From NCBI RefSeq assembly GCF_002159705.1, contig NZ_NFJD01000001.1, positions 496,001-560,000 of the forward strand: a DNA stretch of 64,000 nt, in the 5' to 3' direction. Shown here in pieces: positions 34,467 through 38,278 of this stretch. The stretch's first letter is position 1. Each line of letters begins with the position of its first letter. Under the pieces are notes generated by a model, which was not told the DNA's origin, did no database searches, and was given only the letters and a program-made list of their open reading frames with translations. This DNA is from Elusimicrobium sp. An273. GTDB lineage: Bacteria; Elusimicrobiota; Elusimicrobia; Elusimicrobiales; Elusimicrobiaceae. The position numbers and the translations under genes were made by a program.

Positions 34467-34487
34467 TTGTCTGCACGTGGGGGACGT

Positions 34488-35621
34488 ATGAAAACATTTT
34501 TAAAAATCGTGTTGTTGCTGGCGGTGTTGGCGGGGGTGTATGTTTTTGTGTTTTATAAAACGCCGCAGCAGCGGGAATTTGAGCAAACCTTGTCGGCGGC
34601 GCAGGCGGGGGATATGCAGGCGGCGTTCAAGGTGGCGGGTTTATATGCGGCCGGCCAAGGCGTCAAAACGCCCGACGGCGCGCAAGCGGCCGAATGGTAC
34701 CGCAAGGCGGCGGCGGACGGAAACGTGGAAGCGGCTTGGAAGCTGGCCCAACTATATATTGAGGGGAAAGTCCTGCCGAAAAATTTGGAAGAAGCGGCCG
34801 TTTATTTGCAGTTGGCCGCGCGCGAAGGCAACGCACAGGCGCAAACCGAACTGGGGCGTTTTTATGAACAGGGATTAGGCGGTTTGCCGTCCAGCCGCGG
34901 GGAAGCGTTGAATTGGTATTTGCAGGCCGGACAGCAGGGAGATGCGCAAGCCCAAGAACGCGCACAGGACGTGCAGCTGGAAGACCCGCAGCTCTATGAA
35001 GAAGTAACCCGTTTTCAAGCGTTGCTGGCCAGCGCCAAAACGGGCGATTCGCAGGCGCAGCTGGAAGTGGGGCAAATGCTGCGTGAAGGGTATGTGATTG
35101 CCCAAAACAACGAAGAAGCGGCCCGCTGGTTTACGCAGGCGTGGCAGGAAGGGGAGAAACTGCCGCAGGCCGCGTATGAACTGTCGCGGCTTTATCAAAA
35201 CGGGGAAGGCGTGGAAAAAAATGAAGCCAAAGCCATGGAGCTCTTGGGCGCGGCCGCGCAAGCCAAAAACCCCGATGCACAATACCAAATGGGCACCTTG
35301 GCGTATGGTGCCAATCCGCCCAAATACGAAGATGCTTTCGCGTGGTTTTCCAATGCGGCGGCCGGCGGGCAGGCGCAGGGCCAATATATGACGGGCTTTA
35401 TGCTGATGCAGGGGCAGGGAACGCCCAAATCGGTAGAGCTGGCCATTCAATTCTTCCGCAAAGCGGCCGAACAAAACCATACCGCCGCACAATACGTGCT
35501 GGGGCAAATTTATTGGAAAGGGCTGGGCGTGCCGGCCAATAAAAAAGAGGGGGAACAATGGCTCCGCCGCGCAGCAGACAGCGGCAACGAAGCGGCAAAA
35601 GCATTGTTAACATCTAACTAA
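34488..35621 (+). CDS. Membrane-anchored Sel1-repeat protein
   Basis: 377 residues from the ATG at 34488. An N-terminal membrane anchor (IVLLLAVLAGVYVFVFY) is followed by about eight Sel1-like repeats of roughly 36 residues, e.g. AAFKVAGLYAAGQGVKTPDG, AAWKLAQLYIEGKVLPKN, AQTELGRFYEQGLGGLPS, AAYELSRLYQNGEGVEKN and AQYVLGQIYWKGLGVPAN. Such solenoids are protein-interaction platforms, usually facing the periplasm; the partner is unknown. Confidence 0.88.
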   Translation: MKTFLKIVLLLAVLAGVYVFVFYKTPQQREFEQTLSAAQAGDMQAAFKVAGLYAAGQGVKTPDGAQAAEWYRKAAADGNVEAAWKLAQLYIEGKVLPKNLEEAAVYLQLAAREGNAQAQTELGRFYEQGLGGLPSSRGEALNWYLQAGQQGDAQAQERAQDVQLEDPQLYEEVTRFQALLASAKTGDSQAQLEVGQMLREGYVIAQNNEEAARWFTQAWQEGEKLPQAAYELSRLYQNGEGVEKNEAKAMELLGAAAQAKNPDAQYQMGTLAYGANPPKYEDAFAWFSNAAAGGQAQGQYMTGFMLMQGQGTPKSVELAIQFFRKAAEQNHTAAQYVLGQIYWKGLGVPANKKEGEQWLRRAADSGNEAAKALLTSN

Positions 35622-35623
35622 TA

Positions 35624-35654
35624 AAAAAACCGGCTTTTATTCAGCCGGGTTTTT
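35624..35654. terminator. Bidirectional terminator between convergent genes
   Basis: CCGGCT/AGCCGG stem flanked by an A7 run on the left and T5 on the right; serves both the Sel1 gene and the minus-strand protease operon. Confidence 0.85.
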
Positions 35655-35655
35655 C

Positions 35656-36897
35656 TTACATATATTCCAAGAACGAGGAGCCGGTTCGCAAATTTACGGA
35701 AATTAGTTTTTGGCTGGTGGCTTTGGTCTGGCCGGTTTGGATGGTGCCGCCTTTTACAATCGCAATTTCCAAAACGCCGGAATGCGGCAGTTCGATTAAA
35801 TTTTCCAAGTGGTTATAATCCACGCGGGATTCTTCCCGCCAAGGAGTCACGGTGCGGAGCGTGATGCCTAATTTTTTGACGCTGACGGAATAAATGTATT
35901 CGTCTATATTAATTTTGCCAATGGTGCGGCCGTTTAGCACCAAATCGCGTTCTTTGATGCCGTTGTGGTGGGCGGCCTCCAATAAATCTTTTAAGAAAGA
36001 AATCGGCACGGCATAACTTTCTTGCTTGGAGCGGGAACTGCCGCAGTGAATGCCTACCAACTCATTTTGTTCGTTAATTAACGGCCCGCCGCAGGCGCCG
36101 GCCCGCTCGTGATTGCCAAACTCAAACGAAGTTACAATTCGGCCGGGGGTGGACTGCAGCACTTTGCGGTTGGGCACTACGTGGAAGTCCCCTTCAAAAA
36201 ATCCATAGGAGCGCAGTACTTCGTTGGGTTTGGGTTCGCGTTTAGCCAGCGTGAACGGAAGTACCAAATCGGAAACGTCTTCATTGATTTTAAAAATGGC
36301 GATATCGGCCATGCCGGTATTTCCTTTGGCCACCACCGTAACGGGAATATCGTACGATAATCCCACGTCCAAGCTAAGGCGCAGGTGGATGTCCGGGCCG
36401 ACATAGTCCACCATATGTGCGGCGGTAACACCCCAGAGATATTTTTTGCCTTGGTATTCTTCTTCAATAAAAAAAGCGGTCCCTTCCAAGGGAATGAAAT
36501 CTTGCAGGAACGGATTTCGCAAAGTTCCTACGCGCTGCCGCAGCTGTGTGTCAAACGCCGCCATTTTACGGCGGGTTTGCTCTTGTTGTTTGGCGAGGGC
36601 GATGACTAAGGCAAAATTCACTTGTTTTTGCAGCTGCCGGGCCGTTTCTTGGGTGGTCAGCGGCAGCGGAGGCAGCGGCAGTGCCGGCAGGTTTTGGTGC
36701 GGGGCTGTTGTTTTGGCCAAGGCCGCCGCGGCGGCGGGGCTGGCGGGCAGGAGCGCTTTTGCGGCCGTTTGGGGCGCCTTTTGCGCGGCCACTTTGCCCA
36801 GTGATTTAAAAACCGGCTTTAGCGTTTTTTGTCCATAGGCAAAAGGCGTATGAGCCAACGAAAATACAAGTACCCAAAGCAGGATGTTTTTTTGCAT
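35656..36897 (-). CDS. Secreted chymotrypsin-fold protease with Cys nucleophile (paralogue B)
   Basis: 413 residues. Signal peptide (MQKNILLWVLVFSLAHTPFAYG), an Ala/Pro-rich spacer (about 35-80), a helical part, then a double-barrel protease domain. The triad positions are His161 (WGVTAAHMV), Asp198 (GMADIAIF) and, where trypsin-like enzymes have GxSGG, Cys269 in AGACGGPLI. GIHCGSS and YAVPISFL form the substrate-side strands. About 110 C-terminal residues have no recognisable domain. A GxCGG nucleophile box is typical of viral 3C-like cysteine proteases and uncommon in bacterial trypsin-fold proteins; it could also mark a non-catalytic relative. It follows paralogue A after a 1-nt gap. Confidence 0.75.
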   Translation of the reverse strand: MQKNILLWVLVFSLAHTPFAYGQKTLKPVFKSLGKVAAQKAPQTAAKALLPASPAAAAALAKTTAPHQNLPALPLPPLPLTTQETARQLQKQVNFALVIALAKQQEQTRRKMAAFDTQLRQRVGTLRNPFLQDFIPLEGTAFFIEEEYQGKKYLWGVTAAHMVDYVGPDIHLRLSLDVGLSYDIPVTVVAKGNTGMADIAIFKINEDVSDLVLPFTLAKREPKPNEVLRSYGFFEGDFHVVPNRKVLQSTPGRIVTSFEFGNHERAGACGGPLINEQNELVGIHCGSSRSKQESYAVPISFLKDLLEAAHHNGIKERDLVLNGRTIGKINIDEYIYSVSVKKLGITLRTVTPWREESRVDYNHLENLIELPHSGVLEIAIVKGGTIQTGQTKATSQKLISVNLRTGSSFLEYM

Positions 36898-36898
36898 T

Positions 36899-38110
36899 TT
36901 ATTTTCGCTCCGTGTGTGTTACTTTGCCGGAAGCCGTGTCCAACGCATAGACAAAAATTCTTTTTCTGGAAGAAGAACGGTCTCCTTGTTGGATGGTCAC
37001 GTAGATACGGTCAAGGGGCTGTATCTCCAAGAAGGCTTCCAAATGACTGTAGTTCATAAAAGGGTAGGCCGGAATCGTTTTAATCAGGTTGCCGTTGCGC
37101 ATTTGTTGGATAGAAACGATATTTTCATCCGGGTGCAGCCAGGCAATGGTTTTGCCCAGCACTTTAACGGGCACGGTGCTTTCAATGGGCAGGCCGGACT
37201 TTTCCTGCCGCACCAGGCGCAGCACCCAAGAAATCGGAACAATTTGGGTAAACGAATGAATGGGGGTTGGAAAAGAGTTGGATACCAAACTAAACCACGC
37301 CGCGGTTTGGGCCAATTCTTGGGGCATAATGCCTACAAATACGCCCATGACTTTTCCGTTTTTTAAGACGGGTGAGCCGCAATATCCGCTTCGCACGGGG
37401 AAATTTTCGTACCGGGCTAAAATGCGGTGATTACTGGCAAACAACACATCCACCCGGGGGAACCAGCCGAAGTTTCCGTGCGAAAAGCCTGCCGACTGTA
37501 CTTGTTCTTCCGGGGTGGGGAGCACATAGTCGGGCTGAAGCGGGGTGATGTAATCCAACGCTTGCGGCGGAATGCGAAAAACGGCAATATCCGCGCCATG
37601 CACGTTTCCTTCCCGCACGGAAAAGACTTGGAAAAACAATTCCTGCCCGGCGGGCGTTTTAAGCGACATATACGGCGACCGGCCGATGTCGTCTAACACA
37701 TGGCGGGCGGTAACGCCCCACACCTGGCCGTCAATTTTCACGGCAAAAGCGGAGCCTTTCCCGTGGGTTTTAGGGTCGTATTGCAGGGTAAACACGGCGC
37801 GTTTGATTTTTTGCGGCGCCGGCAGCAGCGGGCGGGGCACGTCTACAGAAACTTTGGGCATAAACAACGGCGTCGCCGCGGACAACACCTGCTGGGTGGA
37901 CACTTGTGCAAAAGCCATATTGTCCAACGCCTGCCAGTTTATTTTGGGGAACGTTTGCTTCAGCGAAGGAGAGCGGTTAAAGAAAAGGTTTTTGGGGCCC
38001 CATAGTTGTTTTAAAAATTTCGTCAGATCTTTTTGCGCAAAAACGGGCGTTGTCCCGCCGCACAGCAGGGCAACGATTCCGAAAAATGCAAGGGTCTTTT
38101 TGATATTCAT
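36899..38110 (-). CDS. Secreted chymotrypsin-fold protease with Cys nucleophile (paralogue A)
   Basis: 403 residues. Signal peptide (MNIKKTLAFFGIVALLCGGT, cut near TPVFAQ). The protease domain starts near 105 (FTLQYDPKTHGKGSAFAV). Triad positions: His137 (GVTARHVLDD), Asp174 (HGADIAVFRI), Cys244 in SGYCGSPVL where Ser is expected. Both paralogues therefore share Ser-to-Cys with the flanking glycines kept. The C-terminal 100 residues resemble those of paralogue B in position but not clearly in sequence. It leads a two-gene operon with a 45-nt leader carrying a GC hairpin and GGAAGG, behind an unusual promoter element shared with the secreted gene at 47.1 kb. Confidence 0.75.
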   Translation of the reverse strand: MNIKKTLAFFGIVALLCGGTTPVFAQKDLTKFLKQLWGPKNLFFNRSPSLKQTFPKINWQALDNMAFAQVSTQQVLSAATPLFMPKVSVDVPRPLLPAPQKIKRAVFTLQYDPKTHGKGSAFAVKIDGQVWGVTARHVLDDIGRSPYMSLKTPAGQELFFQVFSVREGNVHGADIAVFRIPPQALDYITPLQPDYVLPTPEEQVQSAGFSHGNFGWFPRVDVLFASNHRILARYENFPVRSGYCGSPVLKNGKVMGVFVGIMPQELAQTAAWFSLVSNSFPTPIHSFTQIVPISWVLRLVRQEKSGLPIESTVPVKVLGKTIAWLHPDENIVSIQQMRNGNLIKTIPAYPFMNYSHLEAFLEIQPLDRIYVTIQQGDRSSSRKRIFVYALDTASGKVTHTERK

Positions 38111-38245: not shown

Positions 38246-38278
38246 TAAAAAACCCGGAACGAACCGTCCGTTCCGGGG
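38246..38278 (-). terminator. Terminator after glyA
   Basis: CCCGGAACG/CGTTCCGGG perfect 9-bp stem; on the minus strand it is followed by T6. Confidence 0.9.

Follow-up and report, generated by a model that had tools for sequence, protein, structure and literature searches.

The window analysed here, a 64,000-nucleotide stretch of an Elusimicrobium genome, contains two adjacent open reading frames (ORFs) that lie on the minus strand, are separated by 1 bp and whose coordinates were confirmed: P0002 (36899–38110, 403 aa), the first of the pair, and P0001 (35656–36897, 413 aa), the second. Each encodes a signal peptide, a helical segment (a spacer in P0002 and a long helix, residues 83–116, in P0001), a trypsin-fold domain and a C-terminal domain. 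On one side of the pair lies a glyA-like gene, on the other a gene for a Sel1/TPR-like protein. A terminator-like hairpin on the minus strand (38253–38277) lies between the glyA-like gene and P0002 and forms the upstream boundary, promoter-like sequences precede P0002, and a second, bidirectional terminator-like hairpin (35630–35648, listed on the minus strand) follows P0001. On the basis of these features, all of which are consensus matches only, the pair looks like one self-contained bicistronic transcription unit. The Sel1/TPR-like repeat protein (34467–35621, plus strand) adjoins the pair and is transcribed towards it, with the bidirectional terminator in between.

The signal peptides were assigned by eye to residues 1–26 of P0002 (38033–38110, minus strand) and residues 1–23 of P0001 (36829–36897, minus strand); the two junctions read HTPFAYG followed by QKT and TTPVFA followed by QKD. 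In both proteins the segment terminates in A-x-A/G-Q, an end that is conserved across the family as A-x-A-Q (Q23 of P0001 is conserved in at least 90% of sequences), which agrees with the suggestion in the initial annotation that both paralogues carry signal peptides. The annotation had also proposed that both keep the His and Asp positions and the glycine frame of a trypsin-like protease, with Cys in place of the nucleophilic Ser. This was confirmed: the triad residues are His137/Asp174/Cys244 in P0002, with the nucleophile box SGYCGSP, and His161/Asp198/Cys269 in P0001, with AGACGGP. Both nucleophiles are encoded by TGC codons on the minus strand (37379–37381 for Cys244 and 36091–36093 for Cys269).

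Several lines of evidence assign the catalytic domains of P0002 (approximately residues 105–307; 37190–37798, minus strand; Foldseek and VIA-align 2) and P0001 (approximately residues 122–312; 35962–36534, minus strand; Pfam and VIA-align 2) to the trypsin fold of clan PA. The Pfam family Trypsin_2 matched P0001 above the cut-off (E 8e-7) and P0002 below it (E 3e-4); with a limit of E 0.1, it also matched 78 of 84 relatives. Models computed with AlphaFold2 from 84 sequences were confident (pLDDT 88.0 for P0001 and 89.1 for P0002), and both showed the double beta-barrel of clan PA when compared with solved structures by VIA-align 2. The P0001 model matched HtrA/Deg proteases, with Deg1 as the best (Z 22.6, 2.4 Å rmsd over 195 residues), and the best match of the P0002 model was MamO (Z 20.7, rmsd 2.5 Å over 176 residues), with Deg, Spl and viral serine proteases as further fold neighbours. 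In the model of P0001, the third strand is followed by a short helix that begins with the His; the Asp comes ahead of a strand, and the Cys is part of the loop leading to strand 272–274. Thus, as far as the models can tell, the three residues occupy canonical sequence and secondary-structure positions; distances between them were not measured. The structure prediction called for by the initial annotation yielded confident trypsin/HtrA folds, and of the two results that it had listed as refuting, neither was obtained.

The C-terminal regions of about 100 residues, described earlier as unassigned, are real and conserved and remain without a Pfam assignment. They form beta-rich domains in the AlphaFold2 models (approximately residues 308–403 of P0002, 36902–37189, and 313–413 of P0001, 35659–35961, both on the minus strand). 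No PDZ match was found by Pfam in the window proteins or in the 84 relatives, and comparison of the C-terminal domain with the PDZ domain of Elusimicrobiota HtrA by hhalign gave a probability of only 1.2% (profile comparison only; the domain was not folded alone). The family resembles HtrA/Deg proteases (MEROPS S1C; Pfam Trypsin_2) in its double beta-barrel (Z about 22), periplasmic targeting, His and Asp positions and Trypsin_2 match, but differs from them in its Cys nucleophile, its lack of a recognisable PDZ domain, its different conserved C-terminal domain and its tandem expansion.

To what extent the Cys is fixed could be seen from the relatives. Relatives of P0001 occurred in 24 of 61 related genomes, all belonging to the genus of the window, with up to 12 copies per 1.6 Mb genome. 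From these loci (Elusimicrobiaceae, UBA1436-like gut MAGs), 127 non-redundant ORFs were collected, 121 of which had Cys at the nucleophile position and none Ser. The triad was H-D-C in 113 of them, so that His, Asp and nucleophile follow the clan PA order with a conserved GxCG frame, and H-N-C in six; two more were fragments that kept the Cys. In an alignment of 69 sequences with a mean column identity of 16%, the only invariant columns were H161, G267 and C269 (P0001 numbering), and D198 and G270 were at least 90% conserved. A further alignment of 84 named records from a collection scan (Elusimicrobiaceae and Elusimicrobiales MAGs, including UBA1436, Sheep Rumen RGIG6754 and RUG129), which largely overlaps the earlier set, contained 81 Cys and no Ser; the exceptions were A, H and Y, and in two of these three the Asp or His had also changed. 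Paralogues with the fixed Cys share only about 20–25% identity, and the dN/dS ratios (NG86) of the 12 most similar pairs with 60–99% identity were 0.14–0.26. The claim that the Cys has been selected is thus borne out, homologues do not show random residues at this position, and random decay can be ruled out by the conservation of the Cys together with the dN/dS values. Since Ser is absent throughout the 127 ORFs, the family does not belong to the S1 serine proteases.

The ORFs that have lost the Cys include the combinations S-D-H, D-N-Q, D-N-N and Q-D-W, in which mostly the other triad residues have gone too; such joint loss would be expected if these residues work together. Five paralogues (L036, L039, L048, L098 and L105) are intact genes without the nucleophile, and usually without other triad residues, and are likely pseudoenzymes. 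About 5% of the family is degenerate in this way, so some members appear to be pseudoenzymes. Whether this could apply to the whole family, with a fold retained for binding or scaffolding, as in MamO, and a Cys whose conservation reflects, for example, metal or ligand binding, has to be considered, because the triad is clearly lost in a few paralogues and the best VIA-align 2 match of P0002 is itself a described pseudoprotease (MamO; PMC4794232). However, MamO was only one of many HtrA-fold structures matched at near-equal Z, and His, Cys and the GxCG frame are the best conserved elements of a very divergent family, with the Asp at 90% or more. We therefore regard a family of pseudoproteases as unlikely.

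A structural role of the Cys in a disulfide was also considered. Cys244 is the sole Cys of mature P0002, and 31 of the 84 relatives have a single Cys after residue 25. An intramolecular disulfide is therefore excluded for P0002 and for those relatives that have just one cysteine beyond the signal peptide. In addition, family searches of three genomes of the genus, one of which was the draft genome of the window itself, found no DsbB or VKOR, and nothing above the cut-off for DsbA. This absence is consistent with an extracytoplasmic free thiol.

Beyond the genus, we searched 341 genomes of the phylum with a family profile and looked at 20 of them more closely. Giant ORFs of a sister genus (open frames of 1077–5734 aa) contained the same Cys domain, often in tandem, and the domain was likewise embedded in one genome of the phylum that is more distant (G297). 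Self-processing would be compatible with such an arrangement. Acyl-enzymes formed on a cysteine can also react with nucleophiles other than water, and the Cys triad might accordingly carry out acyl transfer, transpeptidation or self-processing, for example in the anchoring or maturation of surface proteins, rather than general proteolysis. On the other hand, members in the genus of the window are mostly stand-alone proteins of 360–500 aa, and neither a sorting signal nor a partner substrate was found next to the pair in the window, which makes such a function doubtful for the family. The giant ORFs of the sister genus (L244–L248 in G102, G103 and G101; genus g12; about 1050–5700 aa) carry the Cys trypsin-fold domain once or several times, and giant ORFs sometimes mix different copies: domain 2 of L175 has Ser (PGSSGSA) and domain 3 of L173 lacks a nucleophile. 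Separately, one locus of the collection (L112, G015:C8) is a 782-aa open frame in which one Cys-protease copy follows directly on another, perhaps through gene fusion of tandem paralogues.

The other phylum matches examined were serine enzymes, namely HtrA (PGNSGGP) and a small Trypsin_2 protease (PSSSGSP), both of which are also encoded in the genome of the window; the nucleophile of another match, L227, was Ser in GFSGGP. The small Trypsin_2 proteases of the genus (about 260–280 aa, PSSSGSPVF; for example, L220 in the genome of the window) share fold family and organism with the Cys family, but they have a Ser nucleophile, lack the C-terminal domain and form a separate, well-supported branch. 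In a tree of 75 domains from which the nucleophile columns had been removed, the Cys/Ser label changed twice on the best tree, compared with approximately 23 changes in shuffled data. Holding all Cys sequences together was not rejected (p-AU 0.40), and only 7% of bootstrap trees gave a single Cys/Ser change. A single origin of the Cys is thus not rejected by this tree, but it is not proven either.

The initial annotation had pointed out that GxCGG is a hallmark of viral 3C-like cysteine proteases, which raises the possibility that the family descends from a viral chymotrypsin-fold cysteine protease by horizontal transfer. The two groups share a Cys nucleophile within a chymotrypsin fold: like picornain 3C and 3C-like proteases (MEROPS C3, C30 and C37; clan PA), the bacterial proteins have the Cys in GxCGG/S, followed in most members about 15 residues later by an S1 His in GxHxG. 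Weak matches to Pfam Peptidase_C3 were observed in 12 of the 84 members (best E 4e-4), and phmmer matched P0002 to 3C proteases in the nucleophile segment only (E 0.005). However, the viral enzymes are polyprotein proteases without a signal peptide, the similarity is weak and restricted to this segment, and the best structural matches were not 3C proteases but HtrA/Deg or viral and bacterial serine enzymes. Full-domain profile matches were likewise to HtrA and V8/Spl enzymes, and the family profile detected Ser Trypsin_2 relatives in the same phylum. Searches limited to close relatives found none in 2.9 million viral contigs or 50,697 phage records, and no plasmid relatives were found. Genes of the P0001/P0002 type are chromosomal genes of bacterial genomes and are not encoded by positive-strand RNA viruses. 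Membership in the viral Peptidase_C3 family was rejected for both window proteins, whose scores (12.3 and 13.6 bits) were below the cut-off of 22 bits. Taking these scores, the absence of viral, phage and plasmid relatives in the above searches and the HtrA-like fold neighbours together, we place the family outside the viral families. Because the fold neighbours are cellular HtrA/Deg proteases, joined in the case of P0002 by Spl and viral serine proteases, what remains of the proposed 3C likeness is a local motif and the chemistry in common. Viral ancestry is unsupported, and we consider it very improbable.

Two further database matches should be mentioned. P0001 weakly matched RT-Protease_XI (E 1e-11) and LmuA trypsin-like parts in PADLOC, and P0002 matched phrog_9683 (‘protease', E 4e-7). 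The RT-Protease_XI and phrog_9683 matches probably reflect the common trypsin fold. A role in defence is unlikely given the signal peptide and the absence of defence genes in the neighbourhood.

Judging from sequence, the two paralogues probably differ in substrate specificity. When aligned with HMMER using the family profile, the GIHCGS segment of P0001 corresponded to GIHWGG of V8 protease and GVHTGS of arterivirus nsp4. The His of this segment forms the S1 pocket of Glu/Gln-specific clan PA proteases. It is His284 in P0001 (codon 36046–36048, minus strand) and is kept in 58 of the 84 relatives; the P0002 clade has Phe and the H-N-C clade Glu. P0001 thus shares its S1-pocket His, in GxHxG, with V8-type and 3C-type enzymes and probably prefers Glu or Gln at P1, an inference from sequence for which cleavage data are lacking. 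P0002 lacks this feature, and its Phe suggests that its specificity probably differs from that of P0001. The V8 glutamyl endopeptidase and the Spl proteases of Staphylococcus (S1B) are also secreted and share the GSPvxNexxevvGIHxG segment, with their S1 His aligned to His284 of P0001; however, they have a Ser nucleophile and no C-terminal domain, and the sequence similarity is only distant. The H-N-C subclade (L030, L035, L037, L038 and L183–L193) combines Asn for the triad Asp and Glu for the S1 His (GIExGGY) with a retained Cys. In related genomes its members stand third in the tandem cluster; the cluster in the window has no such gene. This coordinated change suggests a distinct activity.

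Of the readings considered, the proposed bacterial family of envelope or extracellular cysteine proteases has the best support; proteolysis itself has not been demonstrated. We estimate a probability of roughly three in four that P0001 and P0002 are cysteine endopeptidases of clan PA that act outside the cytoplasm, originated by a bacterial Ser-to-Cys switch and belong to a large, tandemly expanded family of Elusimicrobiaceae. The sequence, its conservation, the purifying selection, the predicted fold and the phylogenetic clustering result from the analysis itself; activity, specificity, the direction of the switch and the role are inferred. As periplasmic or secreted endopeptidases with a chymotrypsin/HtrA double barrel and a Cys nucleophile, these proteins would work like the chymotrypsin-fold viral cysteine proteases: the His-Asp pair would activate the Cys thiol for attack on the peptide carbonyl, and water would hydrolyse the resulting acyl-enzyme. 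The family probably originated from an HtrA/Trypsin_2-like serine protease by one or very few Ser-to-Cys switches in bacteria. Its most likely role would be protein degradation or processing outside the cytoplasm in the anoxic gut, the paralogues having diverged towards different substrates.

According to a survey of the PA clan, its nine cysteine families are proteases of positive-strand RNA viruses, and its cellular members are listed as serine enzymes (PMC6524800). In the literature searched, which was covered only in part, we found no description of a cellular cysteine family in clan PA. For the viral TEV protease, exchange of Cys for Ser costs about 10^4-fold activity (PMC4576821). Such a cost suggests that the fixed Cys in the bacterial family is a real specialisation. 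It seems fairly probable that the family represents cellular clan PA cysteine peptidases in which a Ser-to-Cys switch took place independently of RNA viruses, and which have become an expanded and diversified arsenal of secreted proteases in gut Elusimicrobiota. With a bacterial family that combines a fixed Cys, purifying selection and numerous paralogues, the Ser/Cys switch of this fold would become directly testable in cellular enzymes, with serine relatives available for comparison in the same organisms; the family would also supply natural, secreted and possibly Glu/Gln-specific cysteine proteases.
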